From contig JAUXVD010000008.1 in NCBI GenBank assembly GCA_030684575.1, positions 744,001 to 808,000 of the forward strand: 64,000 bases of DNA. Direction: 5' to 3'. Made by a program: the position numbers and the translations under genes. The stretch's first letter is position 1. The number at the start of each line of letters is the position of its first letter. Shown here piece after piece: positions 19,316 through 33,314 of this stretch. This DNA comes from Nitrospirota bacterium. Lineage in GTDB: Bacteria; Nitrospirota; Nitrospiria; Nitrospirales; Nitrospiraceae. The notes under the pieces are model-generated. The model searched no databases, had not been told where the DNA came from, and saw only the letters and a list, made by a program, of their open reading frames with translations.

Positions 19316-19443
19316 ACAGGATGCTCAAAAAGACCGTCCAGCAAGGCCGCAGTGAGCGAAGAGGCGAGGCATACGCGTGTCGGTATGTTGAGCCTCTTCG
19401 TGAAGCGAGAACGCCGCTGGCGGTCTTTTTCAGCATCCTGCTA
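19316..19443. repeat. family A palindromic element, copy at 19.3 kb
   Basis: CAGGATGCTCAAAAAGACCG at the left and CGGTCTTTTTCAGCATCCTG at the right are complementary apart from one mismatch. The interior differs from other copies but keeps CCAGCAAGGCCGCAG. The closing CTA (19441-19443) is the stop codon of the SRAP gene read on the other strand. Confidence 0.75.
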
Positions 19444-20115
19444 CGCCGGAAGCGGTTCAAGGCAGTCCGGCGCCTCATGCCGCGGGTTGTTCACGAGCGT
19501 ACTGACGGCGTAGGCATGGAGCTCTTCACTCGGGTAGGGACGCAGTAGCGCTTGCAGCGATGCGGCCTGTTGGACGGTGGGGTCGAGCCATTGGTCGTAG
19601 GCTGTGGGGGCCAGAATCACCGGCATCCGGTTGTGAATCGGGCGCAGCAACTCGTTTGGATCCGTGGTGAGGATCGTACAGGATTCGATGGCCGTGCCCT
19701 CCGGAGGTTGCCACTGTTCCCACAAGCCGGCAAAGGCAAGGGGCCGGTGACTCGTCAAGCCGATCCACATCGGCTGCTTCACCTTTCCTTGAACCTGCCA
19801 TTCGTAGAACCCCGTTGCAATCACTAGACAGCGCCGGGCCTTGAAGGCCGCGCGGAACGAAGGCTTCTCCGCCACGGTCTCCGACTTGGCGTTGATGCAT
19901 TGATGTCCGACCTTCGGGTCCTTGGCCCAGGAGGGAATCAGGCCCCAGCGCAACTGTACTAACTGGCGGGTGGTTGTCCCTGGCTCGATCCTGATCGCAG
20001 CCACTGGTTGGGAAGGAGCGATGTTGTAGCGGGGCGTGAATAGGGGAGGGACCGAAATGCCAAACTCCTGGGCGATCACTGCGGGCGAAGCTGTTTGGGT
20101 AAAGCGTCCGCACAT
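19441..20115 (-). CDS. yedK: SRAP-domain protein (YedK/HMCES family, abasic-site shield)
   Basis: This encodes 224 residues from ATG 20115, giving the required N-terminus MCGRFTQT, in which Cys2 becomes the catalytic residue after Met removal. Longer in-frame starts exist (20163, 20187) but would bury the Cys. The SRAP active-site residues are present: PRYNIAPSQ (Asn), GFYEWQ (Glu) and IHNRMPVIL (His). These proteins crosslink abasic sites in single-stranded DNA and protect them. No clear ribosome site precedes the ATG. Its last codons are duplicated at 18681-18733. Confidence 0.88.
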   Translation of the reverse strand: MCGRFTQTASPAVIAQEFGISVPPLFTPRYNIAPSQPVAAIRIEPGTTTRQLVQLRWGLIPSWAKDPKVGHQCINAKSETVAEKPSFRAAFKARRCLVIATGFYEWQVQGKVKQPMWIGLTSHRPLAFAGLWEQWQPPEGTAIESCTILTTDPNELLRPIHNRMPVILAPTAYDQWLDPTVQQAASLQALLRPYPSEELHAYAVSTLVNNPRHEAPDCLEPLPA

Positions 20116-20205
20116 AGGAAGAGAGGGTAACACATGGTTACGAGGAGAGGGAACGACACCCATGCTGATCCCTTGCTCCCGGAACAAAGAGCGGGGTGGA
20201 GCCTG

Positions 20206-21881: not shown

Positions 21882-22172
21882 ATGGGCATCGCAGATTTAC
21901 TCACACTCAAACGACCGGAAATCCTGCGCCTCGCGCAGGCACATGGAGCCCACAACGTGCGGGTCTTCGGGTCCGTGGCGAGGGGAGAGGCGCGCCCAGA
22001 CAGCGATGTCGACTTCCTCGTTGAAATGAAGAGCGACCGCAGCTTGCTCGATCTTATTGAGCTCAGCCAAGAGCTAGAAACCTTGCTGCAACGCAAAGTC
22101 GACGTCCTGACCGATCAGGGCCTCAGTCCCTACCTCGATCAGAAAATCCATGCTGAATCCGTTCGCCTATGA
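21882..22172 (+). CDS. mntA: MntA-type minimal nucleotidyltransferase antitoxin
   Basis: The 96 residues carry GSVARGEARPDSDVDF (residues 30-45), the complete minimal nucleotidyltransferase motif GS-x10-DxD. MntA proteins neutralise the partner HEPN RNase by adding AMP to it. LLDLIELSQELETLLQRKVD is the usual following helix. AGGGG precedes the ATG. The stop overlaps the HEPN gene start as ATGA. The antitoxin is intact, while the toxin is frameshifted. Confidence 0.9.
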   Translation: MGIADLLTLKRPEILRLAQAHGAHNVRVFGSVARGEARPDSDVDFLVEMKSDRSLLDLIELSQELETLLQRKVDVLTDQGLSPYLDQKIHAESVRL

Positions 22173-22515
22173 AGGACGATCGTATCTATCTGCTCCACAT
22201 TCGAGATGCTATCCGGCAGATCGTGCAATATACAGAGACCGGAAAGGACAGCTTCCTGGCGGACCGGAAAACCCAAGACGCCGTAGTCCGCAATCTGGAA
22301 ATCATTTTGGTGAAGCAACCAAGCGAGTGTCTCCCGGCCTCAAATCCGCCCACCCAGGAGTGGCGTGGAAACCCATTGCCGGCATGAGGGATAAGCTGAT
22401 CCACGATTATTTCGGCGTCAATGTGCAGCTAGTATGGGATGTCGTCGACCGCGACCTGCCGGTGTTATACGAGAAAGTGATAGAGCTACTGACGACGCTA
22501 CCTCCCACACCATAA
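22169..22515 (+). pseudogene. HEPN (DUF86) toxin disrupted by a frameshift
   Basis: Translation from ATG 22169 reads MKDDRIYLLHIRDAIRQIVQ, then TQDAVVRNLEII. The frame is then lost at the T run 22305-22308. The family sequence continues in another frame: GEATKRVSPGLKSAHPGVAW, GMRDKLIHDYFGVN and DLPVLYEKVIELL, to the stop at 22515. The catalytic R-x4-H motif (RDKLIH) is in the second part. Restoring the frame gives about 114 residues, the normal length. The cause could be mutation, slippage at TTTT or a sequencing error. Confidence 0.8.
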
Positions 22516-24091: not shown

Positions 24092-24493
24092 ATGAAGTTG
24101 GAAAGTAAATCTCTTGTCCGTAAGAAACAGATAGGCGCAGAGCTTACATTTCTTGATGCAATCGGACTCGTTCGCAGTTTTTGCGACCAACGAAACTGGC
24201 GACAATTCCATAAGCCTAAGGACTTAGCTATTGGCGTTGTGACAGAAGGTGCAGAACTTCTTGATTTATTCAGGTTCAAAAGTGATCAGGAAGTGCAGTC
24301 TTTGCTGGACAGTAAGCACACCCGAGAAATGATCGCGGACGAAATGGCCGACGTTCAGTTTTTCCTATTGCGAATGAGTGAAGTGACGGGCATTGATTTG
24401 GGCGATGCTTTAAGGCGAAAAATCAGGAAGAACCGAAGCAAGTATCCGGTCAAGCGAGCGAGAGGGTCTAACTTGAAATATAATCAAAGTTGA
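24092..24493 (+). CDS. MazG-like nucleotide pyrophosphohydrolase
   Basis: The 133 residues have the all-alpha NTP pyrophosphatase signature: E52-GA-E55 in VVTEGAELLDLFRF and E84-MA-D87 in IADEMADVQFFLLRM, the four metal-binding acidic residues. LTFLDAIGLVRSFCDQRNW is the usual first helix. Such enzymes hydrolyse (d)NTPs to monophosphates, either cleaning the pool or acting in phage defence. The codons are richer in A/T than flanking genes, suggesting acquisition. The next gene, a nuclease-helicase-S24 fusion, starts 6 bases after its stop, so the two are very likely co-transcribed. Confidence 0.87.
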   Translation: MKLESKSLVRKKQIGAELTFLDAIGLVRSFCDQRNWRQFHKPKDLAIGVVTEGAELLDLFRFKSDQEVQSLLDSKHTREMIADEMADVQFFLLRMSEVTGIDLGDALRRKIRKNRSKYPVKRARGSNLKYNQS

Positions 24494-24499
24494 GCGTGC

Positions 24500-26893
24500 A
24501 TGAGACTCTATTCTGCTAGTTCTGTTGAATTTGTTAATGACGCGAATCGCAATCAGATCGCGGACAAACTTCGCCGATCGTTTTTTGAATCCTACCGATT
24601 TTATCCATCCGAGAATGAAGTGCGGTCCTGGAAAAACTCACTGCGTGCCATGTCAGGAGTAGTGACTACAGCTGGACTCAAAGACAACGGCGTTATGATC
24701 GAGTACCAGTTGCCACTGACCTCTAAAAGGCTAGACTTCTTAATTACAGGCCAGGATCAGACTGGGCGTGATCACGCGGTCATCGTTGAACTCAAACAGT
24801 GGGAAAACACCAAGCGCGCGGATGGTGAGACTCTTTTGACGTTTGTCGGTGGTGGAGAGCGACCGGTGCTGCATCCGTCCGTTCAGGTAGGTCATTACAA
24901 AATGTATTTGGGGGATACCCACACAGCGTTTCATGAAGGTGATGCTCCCGTACACCTCAGCGCTTGTTCATATCTGCATAACTACCAAGAAGCAGTTGGA
25001 GATCCTATATTCGACGCGTCGTTTGCAGATTGGCTGGATCAATACCCAGTTTTCACAATGGGCAAGACGGAAGGTTTGTGCGAGCATCTTTACTCCCACA
25101 CAGGAAAGGGGAAGGGCGCTGCGATACTGGATAAAATTGAGGCGGGAGGCTACGCACCGAGCAAGAAATTGATGGAACATGTAGCTGGGGTCATCGAAGG
25201 TGAGCCCTCATATGTTCTGCTAGACGAGCAGTTAGTCGTTTTCGAAAGAGTGCTAGCAAGATCGAGGCGAATGGAAGAGCAGGGCAAAGGTGTTCTTATC
25301 ATTAAGGGTGGACCTGGTACAGGAAAGTCTGTTGTTGCCATCAATCTAATGGCAAGGCTTTTGCGCGAGGGACGGAACGTCCATTATGCAACAGGCTCAA
25401 AAGCCTTTACGGAAACTCTGAGGAAAGTTATAGGGCGACGCGGTTCAGCACAGATCAAATATTTCAACAGTTACATGGGCCAAACAGAAGAGCTAATCGA
25501 CGTCATGATTGCGGATGAGTCCCATCGGATTAGGACGTCAAGCAATAATCGCTTCACGCCTAAAGCGAAGTCCTCAAAAGTTGCACAGATCGATGAACTT
25601 TTGAGCGTGGCCCGCCTATGCGTGTTTCTCATAGATGACGCGCAGGTGGTTCGGCCTAACGAAATCGGTTCCGTAGATTACATCAAACGTGCGGCTGCAG
25701 CACTAGGTATCGTCTGTGAAGAATACGAGCTTGAGGCCCAGTTTCGGTGCGGTGGTTCTGATGGATTTTTAAATTGGGTGGACAACACCCTAGAGGTTAG
25801 GCGAACGGCAAACATTATCTGGGAGGGCGCCGAAGGATTTCAGTTTAAGATTTTCGAAAGTCCTAACGCTCTAGAAGACGCTATTCGAGAAAAGGCCCGC
25901 AAGGGTAACTCTGCCAGGCTTGTTGCTGGCTTCTGTTGGAAATGGTCTGCTCCACGAGCTGATGGAACGTTGGAGGAGGACGTAGTCATTGGTGATTTCA
26001 AGCGCCCCTGGGATGCAAAGCCTGGGTCAAAGAAGCTTGCCAAGGGAATCCCACCAGCTGAGCTATGGGCATATGATCCTGGCGGGATCGATCAGGTTGG
26101 CTGTGTATACACTGCGCAAGGGTTTGAGTTCGACTATGTTGGGGTTATCATCGGCAAGGACTTGGTTTACCGATTTGATGATGGTCGGTGGCGGGGCGTC
26201 AAGGAAGAGTCTGCAGATGCGGTAGTGAAGCGCTCCAAGGAAGGGTTCATCGAACTTGTCAAAAGCACCTATCGTGTACTGCTTAGCCGAGGGATGAAGG
26301 GTTGCTACGTCCATTTCATGGATAAGGAGACCGAGAGATTCTTTAAAAGCCGAATGGACTTGAGTGCCGCTCTCGAAAAAGATGATACGCAAGAGAAGTG
26401 GCTGCCAACGATTGTCGAACACCCCGGGGATAAGGCGTATAGAGAATACCTACCTCTTCTGGCGCTTGAAGCGGCCGCGGGATACTTCGGTCGTGAAAGT
26501 GATACCCAGCCGGTGGGTTGGATAAAACTGTCAAAGAAGAAGCTGAATCAGCAGATGTTCGTGGCCAAGGTCATTGGAGACTCTATGTCACCAAAGATAC
26601 TAGATGGAACTTATTGCCTCTTTGAATATGCGCCGGAAGGCACAAGGAATGGGCAGATTGTATTGGCTGAACACAAGGGCTTTCATGACGAAGATACGAA
26701 GTCCAGCTACTCGGTTAAATTCTACTTCTCAGAAAAAGAAGTCGGCGAAGATAGTTGGTCACATCGACGAATTGTGCTTAAGCCAGCGAACAAGCTCTAT
26801 CGAGAGATCGAGATCCCTGAGGGGAGGGCTGACGAATTTAGAATAGTTGCTTTATACAAAGGGAGCATCACCTCTGATTTGGTTTCCACGTAA
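24500..26893 (+). CDS. nuclease-DUF2075 helicase-S24 peptidase fusion, putative defence protein
   Basis: The 797 residues hold three parts. Residues about 60-110 have a PD-(D/E)xK-like nuclease pattern, with D79 in RLDFLI and E97-L-K99 in VIVELKQ. Residues about 230-640 are a DUF2075/superfamily 1 helicase with P-loop GGPGTGKS (270-277), Walker B ADESH (D339, E340), LEAQFRCGGSDGF and VYTAQGFEFDYVGVI. Residues about 650-790 are a LexA/UmuD-like S24 peptidase with GDSMSP (Ser695) and SVKFY (Lys740). An Ala660-Gly661 bond lies 34 residues before Ser695, the same distance as in LexA, so self-cleavage is possible. It is coupled to the MazG-like gene. Codon use is more A/T-rich than its surroundings. 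Role in defence is inferred. Confidence 0.85.
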   Translation: MRLYSASSVEFVNDANRNQIADKLRRSFFESYRFYPSENEVRSWKNSLRAMSGVVTTAGLKDNGVMIEYQLPLTSKRLDFLITGQDQTGRDHAVIVELKQWENTKRADGETLLTFVGGGERPVLHPSVQVGHYKMYLGDTHTAFHEGDAPVHLSACSYLHNYQEAVGDPIFDASFADWLDQYPVFTMGKTEGLCEHLYSHTGKGKGAAILDKIEAGGYAPSKKLMEHVAGVIEGEPSYVLLDEQLVVFERVLARSRRMEEQGKGVLIIKGGPGTGKSVVAINLMARLLREGRNVHYATGSKAFTETLRKVIGRRGSAQIKYFNSYMGQTEELIDVMIADESHRIRTSSNNRFTPKAKSSKVAQIDELLSVARLCVFLIDDAQVVRPNEIGSVDYIKRAAAALGIVCEEYELEAQFRCGGSDGFLNWVDNTLEVRRTANIIWEGAEGFQFKIFESPNALEDAIREKARKGNSARLVAGFCWKWSAPRADGTLEEDVVIGDFKRPWDAKPGSKKLAKGIPPAELWAYDPGGIDQVGCVYTAQGFEFDYVGVIIGKDLVYRFDDGRWRGVKEESADAVVKRSKEGFIELVKSTYRVLLSRGMKGCYVHFMDKETERFFKSRMDLSAALEKDDTQEKWLPTIVEHPGDKAYREYLPLLALEAAAGYFGRESDTQPVGWIKLSKKKLNQQMFVAKVIGDSMSPKILDGTYCLFEYAPEGTRNGQIVLAEHKGFHDEDTKSSYSVKFYFSEKEVGEDSWSHRRIVLKPANKLYREIEIPEGRADEFRIVALYKGSITSDLVST

Positions 26894-27035
26894 GCTGATT
26901 GATGTAAAGACAGAAACGGTGTGGAAACGTGGAGAAGGTTACTGCCTCCCAAACTGAAAAGGGCCGTTTCATCAAGGCGGTTAACACCGAGGCTCATAAG
27001 TTAGTTGAGTGATTTCGATAGAAGGGGTCTTATTG

Positions 27036-28259
27036 ATGTCCGTGTTTGTCTGGTTAGACTACTCGGAGCGCGAACGTCGGAAGATGCTCGATGTCGTCGC
27101 TCTATTCAGAGAACACGACACCCGCGATGAGCTGGGCATCGGCTCAGTGCGCGATGCATTCGCCGACCTGCTTTTCCCTGGTACGAGCACAATCATGACC
27201 CGAGCGCGGTATTTTCTCCTCGTCCCTTGGATATATCAGCGTCAGGAAAAGTCGCGCACTAGCTCAGCGCAGATTGCCGCGCGGGCGCGGCGAGCGGAGA
27301 CAGGCCTAATTGAGATCATCGAGCGGTCGGATGACAACGAGGGGAACATCGGCAAGGTGGCTAAGACTGCACTGAAGCGCCTTCCGAGCAGCGTTTATTG
27401 GCAGGGGCTTAGTGTCTGGGGGATTCGCACCTTCAGCGGTGCGCAAGCGCAGTACAACCGTAGCCTTGATCGGTATTATACACAGCTCACGCGGCACGGC
27501 GGCCGTGCGACGGAGCGTGACGCTGAGCATGATGATCTCATGCCACCGAACTGGCACGCAGGGCTGATTCCGCCGCCGCCGGATTTTCCCACAGAGTGCT
27601 CATTGAGCCTGACGTGCCGCGAAGCCAATTATCTCGCTGAGCGCATCCGTTTGAGCCCGGCATCCTCTGGGTCGTTGCTGGCAGAACTCGTCGCGCAGCG
27701 GCGACGTAGTGCCGATGTGCCGTTCGCATGGGAGCACCCGTATTCCGCTGAGCTGCCATCGACATTGCGCGTGAAACTGGATCACGCGCAGAATTTTTCT
27801 GAGATCATGAACGGCGCACCGTTGCTCTACAACTTAGTTCTGGCTGAACAGGCCCATCGGGATGAGGGTGTCACAAAGTACCGTGAAAGTTTTGCAAAAT
27901 GGGCGCAATTGCTCTCAGAACGCTCACGCGTGCTGGCCGAATGGAATAGAGAGCGTTTCTGGCAAATGATTCATGCCGTCAATCCACGAATTACCAAACC
28001 TACCTATGACTTTATCAATACATGGTGGGGGCACGCCTTGGCTGGTGATGCTGCACGGCTCTGCGATGACCCATCTGTGCGCTCGTTTATTCGCGAGCGC
28101 GAGCGCCGACTAAAAAAGAAGCTGGCACGCATAGACAATCCCCGTGCACAGGAGCTTTGGACGGGTGATTCCGGCACTGCGCAGTTGGAATTTAGGTGGC
28201 TCATAAGTCAACGATTGCTCGGGGACATTTTCGACGGCCTGGAGGCACTTGATGCTTAG
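27036..28259 (+). CDS. DUF6361-family protein, first gene of a putative three-gene defence operon
   Basis: This encodes 407 residues from ATG 27036, with GAAGGGG 8 bases upstream (GTG 27009 is in frame). The N-terminus FVWLDYSERERRKMLDVV, GSVRDAFADLLFPGTSTIMT and RARYFLLVPWIYQ matches what I recall of DUF6361. There is no catalytic motif I can name. The protein is mixed helical with a basic region near residues 355-375 (RERERRLKKK). Its last 8 bases overlap the phospholipase-D-like gene, which in turn overlaps an SNF2 helicase. This gene-order coupling suggests one multi-protein machine. Function beyond that is unknown. Confidence 0.75.
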   Translation: MSVFVWLDYSERERRKMLDVVALFREHDTRDELGIGSVRDAFADLLFPGTSTIMTRARYFLLVPWIYQRQEKSRTSSAQIAARARRAETGLIEIIERSDDNEGNIGKVAKTALKRLPSSVYWQGLSVWGIRTFSGAQAQYNRSLDRYYTQLTRHGGRATERDAEHDDLMPPNWHAGLIPPPPDFPTECSLSLTCREANYLAERIRLSPASSGSLLAELVAQRRRSADVPFAWEHPYSAELPSTLRVKLDHAQNFSEIMNGAPLLYNLVLAEQAHRDEGVTKYRESFAKWAQLLSERSRVLAEWNRERFWQMIHAVNPRITKPTYDFINTWWGHALAGDAARLCDDPSVRSFIRERERRLKKKLARIDNPRAQELWTGDSGTAQLEFRWLISQRLLGDIFDGLEALDA

Positions 28260-30093
28260 GCCGGACGAGAGGCAACATTTGCTAGAGCTGCTTCGCCCGC
28301 CTGTTGACTGCAAACTGGATGTTGCCGTTGGGACTACGTTCTCACTCGATCTCATGAGTGCGCTGATGCTTCCCCTCTCATTCGCGTTCTTTGACTGGGA
28401 ACAGGCCGATGGTGAACTGGTAGCCGATCCACTGGCCTTGCTCGAAGCGTTAAGGCGCTACGGTGATCGTTTCACTGTTTTCTGTCAGAGTGGACAAATT
28501 CGTTTGCCGCCAAAGTATCAACCGCTTGTCACTTTCCTGGAGCCCTGTATTTACGACGTGCAGCTGGAAGACCCGGATGGTGTCTTTCACCCGAAGGTAT
28601 GGGCGATGCGTTTTGTTGCAGAGGATGGCGCGGTTCGTTATCGCGTCCTGTGTCTAAGCCGCAACCTGACTTTTGACCGTTGCTGGGACACAGTTGTTGC
28701 GCTCGACGGCGAACTTACAGATCGTTCGAACGCCATCGCTGCAAATCACCCTCTCGCCGATTTCATTGCGGCGCTACCTGGTCTCGCCGGTCACGCTCTC
28801 CCGCGTGGGCGTCGGCAGGGGGTAGCGAAAATCGCGGACGAGCTTCGACGCGTGCGGTTCAAGTGGCCGGATGGCTTTGATGAAAACGAATGCCGCTTCT
28901 GGGTAGCGGGATTGGAGGGGAAAGCGGTTACGCCTTTTGGCGAACGGCAAGACAAAGCCCTGATCGTCTCGCCTTTCCTCTCTAATCCCATTGTACGTGA
29001 CTTCCTGGACCACACCGAAGAAATGCATTTGGTTTCTCGTCCGGAGAGTATACAGGAGCTGCCACAAGAGACTTTGCAACGGTGCAAAAGTGTTAGCTTT
29101 CTCGCGCCGGAACTAACAGATGAATCTGATGATGGGTCGCCTCCGCTCGAACGGGATGAAGTGTTGGATGGCTTACATGCGAAGCTATTCGTCATAGATC
29201 GCGGCTGGAATGCCAGCGTATTCAGCGGTTCGTTCAACGCGACCGTTCATGCTTTGCAGCACAATGTCGAGTTTATGGTCGAACTCGTGGGCAAAAAGAG
29301 CCGATTCGGCGTGGACCAGTTTCTCCGACAAGTGAAGGGTGAAACAAATTTCGCTGACTTGTTGAAGGCGTACGATAGGAACGCGGCACCCGTGCCAGCC
29401 GATGCGACAGCGCAGAAGCTCGATGATCTGCTCCATGCTACGAAGCGAGCACTTGCTACCGCAGGTCCACGGCTGGTCGTCACGCCCGCGAGTGAAATTG
29501 ATTCTTTTGACATGAGTATGGAGTGGACGCGTGCGCCGCATTGGCCACATACAGCGGTCGAGATACGGGCGTGGCCGATCACGCAGCAAGCGGAGCGGGC
29601 TCAAACACTTAATAAATCAATGGTGTTTCCCCGGCTGTCATACGGGGGGCTAACGCCCCTCATCGCCTTCGCCATGACTGCGAAGCACGGCGAAGCAAAG
29701 CGCGAATCGATTTTTGTCATGAACCTTCCGCTCCAGGGTGCGCCAGAAGATCGCCAGGATCGGATTGTCCGCTCGCTGATCGAAAACCGCGATCAATTGC
29801 TTCGCTATATCCTTTTTCTCCTAGCCTCCGGCGATGAAATGGCGGCTGCTTCAGGTGATTTGCGCAAGTTGCTTACATCGCAGGAGGACGGTCCAGGCCG
29901 GGCGTCTGCGAATCCCTATTTGCTGGAAACGCTGCTCCGGGCTCTGCATCGTAGTCCGGCGCAGCTTGAACGCGTGTCGTCTCTATTGGCGGTGCTCCGA
30001 AAGCAACCAGGTAGCTCGGAATTGCTCAGCGACGACTTTCGGAAAATCTGGGAACCCATTTGGGATGCCGCCAGGCAGGTCATGGAAAAATGA
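28252..30093 (+). CDS. phospholipase D-like protein, second gene of the putative defence operon
   Basis: This encodes 613 residues from ATG 28252, with GGAGG 6 bases upstream, inside the end of the previous gene. Two HKD-like motifs are visible: H113-P-K115 in FHPKVWAMRF followed by LCLSRNLT, and H309-A-K311 in LHAKLFVID followed by FSGSFNAT. PLD-fold proteins in defence systems are commonly nucleases, and in others they are lipases. No signal peptide or membrane segment is seen, so a cytoplasmic nuclease is more likely. It ends ATGA with the helicase gene start. The first motif is degenerate, so the active site may need both halves or a dimer. Confidence 0.8.
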   Translation: MLRPDERQHLLELLRPPVDCKLDVAVGTTFSLDLMSALMLPLSFAFFDWEQADGELVADPLALLEALRRYGDRFTVFCQSGQIRLPPKYQPLVTFLEPCIYDVQLEDPDGVFHPKVWAMRFVAEDGAVRYRVLCLSRNLTFDRCWDTVVALDGELTDRSNAIAANHPLADFIAALPGLAGHALPRGRRQGVAKIADELRRVRFKWPDGFDENECRFWVAGLEGKAVTPFGERQDKALIVSPFLSNPIVRDFLDHTEEMHLVSRPESIQELPQETLQRCKSVSFLAPELTDESDDGSPPLERDEVLDGLHAKLFVIDRGWNASVFSGSFNATVHALQHNVEFMVELVGKKSRFGVDQFLRQVKGETNFADLLKAYDRNAAPVPADATAQKLDDLLHATKRALATAGPRLVVTPASEIDSFDMSMEWTRAPHWPHTAVEIRAWPITQQAERAQTLNKSMVFPRLSYGGLTPLIAFAMTAKHGEAKRESIFVMNLPLQGAPEDRQDRIVRSLIENRDQLLRYILFLLASGDEMAAASGDLRKLLTSQEDGPGRASANPYLLETLLRALHRSPAQLERVSSLLAVLRKQPGSSELLSDDFRKIWEPIWDAARQVMEK

Positions 30094-33000
30094 ACGCACG
30101 TCCCGATACAGCTTCCGCTCTTGCCGGCCTGAAGGACTTTCAGCGAGCGACAGTCGATTATATTTTTGACCGATTCTATGGACAGGACCCGACCCGCCGC
30201 TTTCTTGTCGCAGACGAAGTAGGATTGGGCAAGACCCTTGTCGCACGCGGTGTGATTGCGCGCACAATCGATCACCTTTGGAACGAGGTACCACGCATTG
30301 ATGTAATCTATATTTGTTCCAACGCCGACATTGCCCGCCAGAACATAGATCGGCTTAGAATTCCGGGCTGCGAGGATGCGGCACAGGCAACGCGCCTGAC
30401 CTTACTGCCGCTACAAATGCACGATCTCCGGCGCCATCGCGTCAATTTCGTAGCATTGACACCTGCCACTTCGTTTGAGCAAACCGGAGGCGGTGGGCGC
30501 ATGGATGAGCGGGTTCTGCTTTATTGGCTGTTGGATCGCGCATGGGGAATCCACGGGCCGCGTGCCTCGCTTTACGTGATGCAGGAATACGCGGGGACGG
30601 CTTCATTCGAACGAAGTATAGAAGCTTTTGACCCCACGAAACTCAATAAACAGATCGCAGATGAGTTTGTTTCCAGCTTAGCAACGCAAGTGCAGGAAGA
30701 GGTAACGGCAGGGAAGCCGGATATGCGTACGCGCTTCGAGGAGTTGCGCGGTATATTCAGCCGCAGCGACGCGAAAACGACGCAAGCCGAAACCAGGCAG
30801 CGGACGCGGTGGATTGGCGAGTTGAGGCGGTTGCTCGCTCGTGTCTGCCTCGCGACGTTGGAGCCGGATTTAATCATTCTGGACGAGTTTCAGCGTTTCA
30901 AACATCTGCTTGCAGAAGATTCGCCAGCGGGCGAGCTTGCGCGCGACTTATTTGAATCGCAGGCGGGTCAGGGTTCCCGCGTTTTGCTACTTTCGGCCAC
31001 GCCGTATCGCGGTCTGAGCCTCCATCATGAGACCGATGACGATCACTACGGTGACTTCCTCACCTTACTGCGGTTTCTGGAAAACAGCGATGCGTCAGGC
31101 TGCAAGGAGATATTGGCAGAGTACCGCGCGGCTCTGCCTGCTGTGATGACACCTGACGGCCTGGCGCGGTTGCGTAGCGCGAAAGAAGCGCTCCAGCTGC
31201 GGCTGCGGCGGGTGATGGCGCGTACCGAACGCCTTGCGTCGACTAGCCAACGTGGTGGAATGCTTCTGGATGCGCCGCCCGCCGATGCCGCGCTTCATGC
31301 GGTTGATGTTCGCGCGTTTCTAGGTGCACAGCGGGTTGCCGACGCGGTCGAACAGGGCGATGTCGTCGAGTATTGGAAGTCAGCGCCGTACCTGTTCAAC
31401 TTCATGGACAACTACGCTTTGAAGCAGGCTTTCAAGGACGCGCCCGAGAAAGACCAGATGGTGGGGCTTGTAAGGGAGTTCCCCGAGACGTTTCTTGATC
31501 TGGAACGCGTGCGCGCTTACCAGCCGGTGGAACCAGCAAATTCACGTCTTCGCGAGTTACTCTCCGAGACTGTGGATCGTGGAATGTGGCGGCTGCTTTG
31601 GATGCCGCCATCGCTTTGCTATTACAGTCTGGAGGGTCCGTTCGCTGCTCCGGAATTGGCCAGCGTGACCAAGCGGCTCGTCTTCTCCGCCTGGCACATG
31701 GTTCCGCGCGCCGTAGCGTCGCTCGTTTCATACGAAGCTGAACGCCGGATGATGCGAGCGCCTAGTCCGCTCTCGCGAGTCACGCAAGAAGATTGGAAGA
31801 AACAGCGAGGATTGCTGCGGTTTGGGATATCTGAAGGCCGCCTCATCGGTCTGCCATTGTTGCTGCTTGTTTATCCATGCCTTACTTTTGCTCGCTCTTG
31901 TGACCCGCGGGAGTTGGCGCGGGGCACACCTCTTACTGCCGCAGAGGTGCGCACACAGCTCGCTACGCGAGTACGTGGTTTGATTGAAAAGCTGGGCATC
32001 GTTCACGAGGCTGGTAGCAGCACCGACGATCGCTGGTATTGGCTTGCCCCGATGCTGCTTGATTACGAGCAGTTTCCAGTCGAGTCACAAGCCTGGTGGG
32101 ACCGTACGGAGCTGGCGCAAACATGGGCCGGTGTCGAAGTCGGCGACGAAGACGCTGGCTGGTCTAGTCATGTGGAGCGCGCGACGCAAACACTCATTTC
32201 TATCCGCACTGGCAAAGAACGGCTTGGTGTGCCGCCAGACGACCTTTTTGATGTACTGGCTCTCGCGGCTTCTGCCGCTCCGGCTACAGCCGCGTTACGC
32301 GCGTACGCACGGGCTAGCCGTAGCGACCCTGCGCTTTCTCTTCCGATGCGTGACATCGCCGCACGGTCGGGAAGAGCCTTTCTCACTCTTTTCAATCATG
32401 CGGAGGTCATCGAAGCAGTTCGTTCTGAATTTCCAGGCGAACCTTACTGGCAGCGTGTGCTGGACTACGCGCACGCGGGTGGGCTTCAAGCTGTCCTCGA
32501 TGAATACACGCATCTGCTCCGGGAGTCACTCAGCGTTACTGCGCTGTCGGCAGAGGAGACAACCCAGAAAATTGGTGCGGAACTTATCGGAGCGCTAACA
32601 ATTCGTGCTGCATCGCTACGTATCGATGAAGTCACGGCACCCCGGTATGCGCGCCAGGTAACGCTTAAGACCGAACCGCTGCGCATTCGCTTTGCCATGC
32701 GTTTTGGTGATGATCGCTCTGATGAAGAAGTGTCAATCGGCGTTGATGGCGCACTTGCGGGAACGCGTAAGGAGCGTGTGCGCGCGGCGTTCAACTCTCC
32801 ATTCTGGCCGTTTGTGCTGGTTTCCACTTCGGTCGGGCAGGAGGGTCTTGATTTTCATCATTACTGTCACGCCATTACGCACTGGAACTTGCCGTCAAAC
32901 CCTGTCGATCTCGAACAGCGTGAGGGTCGTATACATCGCTACAAAGGGCATGCGGTTCGCAAGAATATTGCGGCGGCATTTGCCTCCGAGGCTTTACGTC

Positions 33001-33314
33001 AAAGTGACTCGGATGTGTGGGAGTCCGTTTTTGCGCTCGGTCGTGCAGGCCGTTCGGTGCAGGAAAATGATCTCGTGCCTTATTGGCTTTTCCCCGGTGA
33101 GGCAAAAATAGAGCGACATGTTCCCGCGTTGCCGTTTAGTCGTGAAGTCGAGCGTTTATACGGGCTGCGCCGAGCGCTCGCGATCTACCGCATGGTTTTC
33201 GGCCAGAGCCGGCAGGAGGATTTGATTGCCTATCTGTTGTCCAAAATTCCCGAAGACGAGCGGGGAAAGATAGTGGCGGAGTTGCAAATAGATTTGAGCC
33301 CAGCGGCGTCTTGA
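30090..33314 (+). CDS. SNF2-like superfamily 2 helicase, third gene of the putative defence operon
   Basis: This encodes 1074 residues from ATG 30090, overlapping the previous stop by 4 bases. Residues 1-300 carry the DEAD/SNF2 N-terminal lobe: LKDFQRATVDYIFDR, Walker A DEVGLGKTLVARG (Lys48), DEFQ (Asp265 onward) and LLLSATPYRG. After a long central insertion (about residues 400-880) comes the second lobe with VSTSVGQEGLDFHHYCHAIT and motif VI QREGRIHRYKGH (near 943-954). It should be an ATP-driven DNA translocase. SNF2-type helicases with PLD nucleases occur in several anti-phage systems. Whether this combination has been catalogued cannot be judged here. Confidence 0.85.
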   Translation: MNARPDTASALAGLKDFQRATVDYIFDRFYGQDPTRRFLVADEVGLGKTLVARGVIARTIDHLWNEVPRIDVIYICSNADIARQNIDRLRIPGCEDAAQATRLTLLPLQMHDLRRHRVNFVALTPATSFEQTGGGGRMDERVLLYWLLDRAWGIHGPRASLYVMQEYAGTASFERSIEAFDPTKLNKQIADEFVSSLATQVQEEVTAGKPDMRTRFEELRGIFSRSDAKTTQAETRQRTRWIGELRRLLARVCLATLEPDLIILDEFQRFKHLLAEDSPAGELARDLFESQAGQGSRVLLLSATPYRGLSLHHETDDDHYGDFLTLLRFLENSDASGCKEILAEYRAALPAVMTPDGLARLRSAKEALQLRLRRVMARTERLASTSQRGGMLLDAPPADAALHAVDVRAFLGAQRVADAVEQGDVVEYWKSAPYLFNFMDNYALKQAFKDAPEKDQMVGLVREFPETFLDLERVRAYQPVEPANSRLRELLSETVDRGMWRLLWMPPSLCYYSLEGPFAAPELASVTKRLVFSAWHMVPRAVASLVSYEAERRMMRAPSPLSRVTQEDWKKQRGLLRFGISEGRLIGLPLLLLVYPCLTFARSCDPRELARGTPLTAAEVRTQLATRVRGLIEKLGIVHEAGSSTDDRWYWLAPMLLDYEQFPVESQAWWDRTELAQTWAGVEVGDEDAGWSSHVERATQTLISIRTGKERLGVPPDDLFDVLALAASAAPATAALRAYARASRSDPALSLPMRDIAARSGRAFLTLFNHAEVIEAVRSEFPGEPYWQRVLDYAHAGGLQAVLDEYTHLLRESLSVTALSAEETTQKIGAELIGALTIRAASLRIDEVTAPRYARQVTLKTEPLRIRFAMRFGDDRSDEEVSIGVDGALAGTRKERVRAAFNSPFWPFVLVSTSVGQEGLDFHHYCHAITHWNLPSNPVDLEQREGRIHRYKGHAVRKNIAAAFASEALRQSDSDVWESVFALGRAGRSVQENDLVPYWLFPGEAKIERHVPALPFSREVERLYGLRRALAIYRMVFGQSRQEDLIAYLLSKIPEDERGKIVAELQIDLSPAAS

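Follow-up and report, generated by a model that had tools for sequence, protein, structure and literature searches.

The window, that is the whole 64,000-nucleotide stretch of a Nitrospirota contig (JAUXVD010000008.1) that was analysed, carries on its plus strand an open reading frame with an ATG start (24500..26893) for a 797-aa nuclease-helicase that ends in a C-terminal S24 module. From N- to C-terminus, and all on the plus strand, the protein comprises a PD-(D/E)xK-like nuclease region (approximately residues 1-240; 24500..25219) with D79 and E97-x-K99, a Schlafen (SLFN) group 3 (DUF2075) helicase (residues 264-608; 25289..26323) with the Walker A motif GGPGTGKS, a partly disordered and fast evolving linker (residues 621-649; 26360..26446), and a LexA/CI-like, putatively self-cleaving S24 module (residues 650-797; 26447..26890). 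The module contains a putative scissile bond, Ala660-Gly661 (26477..26482), and the predicted catalytic residues Ser695 (in GDSMSP; 26582..26584) and Lys740 (in SVKFY; 26717..26719). Six nucleotides before the gene ends that of a 133-aa MazG-like NTP pyrophosphohydrolase (24092..24493, plus strand; Pfam PF12643, E 3.4e-10), and 115 nt downstream begins, on the same strand, a ZacABC defence system recognised by PADLOC (27009-33314). Genes for a SRAP (SOS-associated peptidase) protein (19441-20187, minus strand) and a HepT-like RNase (22150-22515, plus strand) lie a few kb upstream.

The initial annotation had described a 797-residue chain that joins a DUF2075 helicase to an S24 peptidase with Ser695 and Lys740, and both the reading frame and Pfam confirm this. 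The helicase matches SLFN-g3_helicase (PF09848, formerly DUF2075) over residues 264-608 (E 2e-88), its GGPGTGKS and DE-x-HR motifs are invariant in the alignment of S24-bearing relatives, and the best structural matches found by Foldseek are SLFN11, at the top, and RecD2. The PD-(D/E)xK-like nuclease proposed at the same time stands as a motif-level call, made from the motif and predicted secondary structure because no nuclease family in Pfam matches the protein: D79, E97, L98, and K99 are invariant in 13 of 13 aligned full-length S24-bearing relatives, and the predicted model places the motif residues on two strands (77-85 and 91-99). A Pfam match to the Schlafen core (AlbA_2-type) RNase was likewise absent, the N-terminus bearing the D...ExK motif instead. 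Membership of the Nhi/AbiO group was considered and rejected, as a full-length profile match was not obtained and only the P-loop part, residues 237-391, aligned (E 4e-13 and 9e-13). The window enzyme resembles Nhi, AbiO, and Gabija GajB, nuclease-helicases of phage defence, in having a superfamily 1 helicase, with profile matches that are partial, and we know of no S24 module in either Nhi or AbiO.

The S24 part of the protein is a LexA/CI-type domain with intact predicted catalytic residues. Pfam places Peptidase_S24 (PF00717) at residues 656-784 with a score above the gathering threshold (E 7e-10), and residues 649-790 match the phage repressor family phrog_4 in PHROGs. When residues 621-797 were modelled with AF2 from a 78-sequence alignment, the module was predicted with a mean pLDDT of 89 and a pTM of 0.83, and the best match among solved structures was LexA (Z 12.6, 2.8 Å over 120 residues, 24% identity), followed by lambda CI (Z 11.3), UmuD' (Z 10.3), and signal peptidases (Z at most 6.8); the LexA likeness first proposed from the sequence therefore holds up in the predicted structure. 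Model positions 30-172 superpose on LexA 75-198, a span that includes the LexA cleavage-site region with its Ala84-Gly85 bond. A profile of the module searched against the PDB returned chains of LexA, UmuD, and CI, together with two marginal unrelated entries (E 0.3 or worse). No HTH DNA-binding family was detected by Pfam in the 797-aa protein, whose N-terminal part is instead nuclease-like and SLFN-g3 helicase, and identity as a LexA/CI transcriptional repressor fails on this missing N-terminal domain. In comparison with an 84%-identical orthologue (L003), dN/dS was 0.086 for the S24 part, 0.071 for the nuclease, 0.056 for the helicase, and 0.44 for the linker (621-650), values that have to be read with synonymous sites close to saturation; the low value for the S24 part indicates strong constraint on the module. 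Linker residues 621-633 have pLDDT values below 50 in the full-length model, whose pTM of 0.47 is too weak to place the S24 domain against the enzyme body.

The presumed cleavage site and the catalytic dyad are conserved together. A first set comprised 89 modules, obtained with DNA patterns or already contained in the first phylum sample. All 89 have Ser and Lys, P1 was Ala in 84 and Cys in 4, and P1' was Gly in 67, Thr in 15, and Ser in 6. The search patterns included GRSMEP, which partly builds in the conservation of Ser, though not of Lys, and the count was therefore repeated on profile hits from whole genomes. Among 76 intact modules of this second set, Ser, Lys, P1 Ala/Cys, and P1' Gly/Thr/Ser were each found in 75, and P1' (n = 79) was Gly in 52, Thr in 21, and Ser in 3. 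The lone exception, a ResIII-type enzyme (L125:1-1980), has HK in place of AG, Cys in place of Ser, and Arg in place of Lys; this joint loss of scissile pair and dyad is what coupling predicts, though it is one event. Joint conservation of Ala-Gly, Ser, and Lys, as suggested at the outset, is thus borne out for the dyad and for its loss together with the scissile pair, but Gly at P1' is not strict. Similarly, Ala660-Gly661 does lie 34 residues before Ser695, as originally noted, and Gly85 and Ser119 of LexA are spaced by the same 34 residues, but the distance ranges from 34 to 59 among relatives in the pattern-based set and was dropped as a signature of the family. Residues P3-P1 are mostly AAA in both sets. 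A domain whose fold is retained to bind RecA filaments or some partner, with cleavage beside the point, would be in keeping with LexA, CI, and UmuD, which bind RecA filaments through their S24 domains (PDB 8gms, 8gmu, 8gmt). We consider this very improbable, since docking alone would not need the Lys, and yet 75 of 76 intact modules retain both Ser and Lys, with the scissile pair following them, the sole decayed module having lost all together.

Immediately upstream of the SLFN gene, a MazG homologue is found in nearly all S24-bearing loci with available upstream sequence, namely the window, L003-L007, L021, L022, L024, L028, L033, L040, L048, L050, L090, L094, and L097 (L005 and L021 are one locus, as are L006 and L022), and in several of these the MazG stop and the SLFN start overlap or touch. 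Elsewhere, the MazG homologues of L023 lie at distances of 1.7 kb upstream and 4.3 kb downstream rather than directly upstream, the frameshifted L019 has one downstream, and the L063 sequence is truncated. MazG is also upstream of the S24-less enzymes of L001, L104 (a Priestia plasmid), and L105 (an archaeal plasmid), though not of all S24-less relatives. The MazG-like protein and the SLFN-g3 nuclease-helicase form a conserved two-gene unit of bacteria and of an archaeal plasmid, with or without S24, and are a candidate defence system; the initial annotation had made no mention of the MazG-like partner. MazG has been predicted, though not validated, as a defence domain (PMC13092281), and no description of MazG with DUF2075 was found in a literature search with thin coverage of subscription papers and bioRxiv. 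Membership of the S24 enzyme in the ZacABC operon was rejected, as none of the other SLFN loci that were searched has a Zac homologue, and the 19.5 kb surrounding the 84%-identical orthologue has none either; a literature search that left most subscription papers and bioRxiv outside its coverage returned no paper on ZacABC. No cognate methyltransferase adjoins the S24 gene of the window, the immediate neighbours being the MazG-like gene and ZacABC.

The S24 module is a clean append and not part of the enzyme core. Relatives that lack S24 are complete enzymes except that they stop at about the position of residues 620-630 in the 797-aa protein. A tree of the SLFN cores has six changes between presence and absence of S24, of which well-supported branches force five or more, and L001 (without S24) and L004 (with S24) are sisters with support of 98/98; as the tree is unrooted, gain of the module is indistinguishable from loss. 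The Halomonas SLFN-S24 gene (L019:9995-12390) has a frameshift, real or a sequencing error, just 5' of the module.

The module is by no means confined to this enzyme. A scan of the genomes of 84,980 species yielded 169 relatives, the best 80 of which were taken, and the carriers were typed by clustering the attached parts and by Pfam and PADLOC scans of representatives. Among these best 80 of 169, the carriers besides SLFN enzymes were type I HsdR, several families of type III Res, type ISP, type IIG, and helicases like DruE of Druantia and like BrxH/PLD, spread over many phyla; the type ISP and type IIG carriers are single-chain enzymes. Additional helicase types carry the module within the phylum of the window itself. 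Several carriers lie in complete restriction-modification operons: HsdM-HsdS-DUF6119-HsdR-S24 in L037 (from a bin labelled archaeon), HsdS beside HsdR-S24 in L031, a type III methylase beside Res-S24 in L030, and a methylase that adjoins the S24 carrier in L058. Searched by profile, phylum samples contained the module in 17 of 396 Nitrospirota genomes, in 35 of 237 from the phylum that includes L028 (labelled Omnitrophota), in 27 of 297 from the phylum that includes L071 (labelled Acidobacteria), and in 5 of 398 from the phylum that includes L059 (labelled Rhodanobacteraceae), mostly within frames of 500-2000 codons. Enzyme types are mixed on the module tree, a quick tree without bootstrap on which the starred branches force at least three switches of SLFN and at least five of HsdR, and the module has therefore moved between unrelated enzymes. 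The initial annotation, which saw one design in one protein, was in this respect too narrow, as the module is a recurrent and swapped domain. We lean, by a little, towards regarding it as a single mobile LexA-type self-cleaving domain that has been attached to, inserted into, and exchanged among DNA restriction and helicase-nuclease defence enzymes of most classes, where it would act as a general SOS-linked post-translational switch that turns immunity off (or on).

In two type ISP-like proteins (L083:1661-6142 and L087:4926-9524), S24 lies mid-protein and is followed by approximately 200 more residues. There are also standalone S24 proteins of 257-274 aa in Acidobacteriota (L061, L070, L075, L078, L081, and L086), which share an unannotated N-terminus with a 'GVLL' motif. 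These were considered as trans-acting restriction regulators and set aside, several of them adjoining apparent housekeeping genes, which by eye we take to be a MutY-like gene and a PfkB-like sugar kinase.

The position of the module in one group of carriers bears on the direction of the switch. In five EcoEI-type HsdR proteins (L084, L085, L092, L095, and L099), it sits near the N-terminus, inside the nuclease domain, between an N-terminal helix (...ARIAIDDLLRQAGW) and a strand (RADYVLYDQRGRPLAVIEAK); this strand (RADYVLYD...VIEAK) bears the catalytic D...ExK. A plasmid HsdR (L126:3016-4149) provides the empty site, being 73% identical over both flanks, which are there joined by a short loop. 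With the module in this position, cleavage at Ala-Gly would split the HsdR nuclease domain in two. This is difficult to reconcile with the original proposal that cleavage activates the effector; in such a model, S24 would restrain the nuclease-helicase until a phage or damage signal led to self-cleavage and freed a DNA-degrading enzyme, possibly killing the cell. Such an arrangement has a precedent of sorts in Hachiman, a damage-activated nuclease-helicase defence system (PMC12278908), and the disordered linker that joins the module to the window enzyme suggests a geometry compatible with release. The core does not need the module, however, as S24-less relatives are otherwise complete enzymes, and restriction enzymes, which make up most of the carriers, have to act on foreign DNA as it arrives, before damage, so that an ON switch triggered by damage would come too late. 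Activation by cleavage thus finds no support in the carriers, and we regard it as unlikely.

We instead favour an OFF switch, because most carriers are restriction enzymes active without damage and because of the insertion in HsdR. For the SLFN enzyme, the argument is carried over from HsdR, since no inserted version of the module was found in the SLFN family. That so many unrelated restriction enzymes carry the module suggests an off-switch that is portable, built into the enzyme, and used upon damage to the cell's own DNA, and we give roughly even odds to S24 self-cleavage being a post-translational OFF switch (restriction alleviation) on nuclease-helicase and restriction enzymes. In the scheme that we infer, from the defence function and cleavage itself to RecA as trigger, degradation, and the choice of off over on, the gene pair provides a MazG-like pyrophosphohydrolase and a nuclease-helicase, the latter probably destroying invading DNA. 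Upon damage to the host's own DNA, RecA-ssDNA filaments would cause the module to cut its own chain at Ala660-Gly661, and the body of the enzyme, now ending in ...LEAAA, would present a ClpXP-type C-degron like that of LexA-family fragments and be removed; C-terminal fusions in general would be left with ...L-x-A-A-A. Host DNA that has just been repaired and is still unprotected would thereby be spared, so that restriction alleviation would be built into the enzyme itself, and the module, which has moved among many unrelated restriction enzymes, would serve this same end in them.

The elements of such a pathway are not unprecedented. That restriction has to be switched off after damage is well established. 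Alleviation of type I restriction through destruction of HsdR by ClpXP is known (PMC11109961), and the HsdR of EcoKI is destroyed by ClpXP when host DNA has unmodified sites, through a degron that escaped detection (PMC4231737). In the LexA-like protein IrvR, self-cleavage exposes a C-degron for ClpXP, and the case of LexA is cited as well (PMC7101444). Some observations fit the OFF switch less well. Thr or Ser occupies P1' in roughly a quarter to a third of the modules, which counts against it, and we know of no case of cleavage at Ala-Thr. AAA at P3-P1 may instead be a requirement of the fold or of the cleavage step and not a degron. To our knowledge, SLFN-type enzymes have no methylation-based self-protection, so a switch that responds to unmodified host DNA fits them less directly. 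Archaea lack RecA, and the L037 carrier then implies a RecA-free host unless its bin is contaminated; together with the ability of IrvR to cleave without RecA (PMC7101444), this means that the trigger may be something other than RecA. In Escherichia coli, the alleviation of EcoKI that plasmids induce is not itself an SOS function (PMC11109961).

RecA-independent self-cleavage of a LexA-like protein with a C-degron (PMC7101444) also invites the thought that slow cleavage, constitutive or at least independent of infection, might keep a dangerous nuclease at low levels, as IrvR does for a repressor, and the occurrence of the module in very divergent hosts would agree with this. We doubt it strongly, as a plain degron would suffice for permanent instability, and the fact that an entire cleavable domain is conserved points to a regulated event.

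Read as an OFF switch, the module would combine known parts in what may be a new way. With LexA, lambda CI, and UmuD it shares the fold, the Ser-Lys dyad, and an Ala-Gly/Cys-Gly pair upstream of the Ser; unlike them, it has no DNA-binding domain and is partnered with a nuclease-helicase or restriction subunit, allows Thr or Ser at P1', and conserves a YxSxK...WxH region after the catalytic Lys. The proposed outcome, proteolytic removal of the restriction subunit on damaged or unmodified host DNA, is that of ClpXP alleviation of EcoKI HsdR, an enzyme with no built-in cleavable domain known and a degron that was not identified (PMC4231737). With Hachiman (HamAB) the window enzyme would share a nuclease and a helicase responding to DNA damage, whereas Hachiman has two chains, no known S24 domain, and is activated by damage rather than switched off (PMC12278908). 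A search of full-text literature covering few subscription papers and preprints found no description of S24-fused restriction or helicase enzymes. This is a weak sign of novelty, as Pfam matches such fusions domain by domain and the architectures may exist unnoticed in databases; what that search did not find described is the combination of S24 with these enzymes and its spread over restriction enzyme classes.

It has long been asked how cells keep restriction enzymes away from DNA of their own that is repaired but unmethylated, and a cleavable LexA-type domain on the restriction subunit would, if the OFF switch is correct, be a direct and testable answer in many phyla. The sequence pattern LxAAAGxF ... 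GRSMEP ... TVKRYxSEK ... WRH provides a searchable marker for such restriction systems. LexA-type self-cleavage would then be placed on enzymes instead of repressors, the SOS response would be tied to immunity without transcription, and the module would represent a previously unrecognised layer of control in bacterial immunity.
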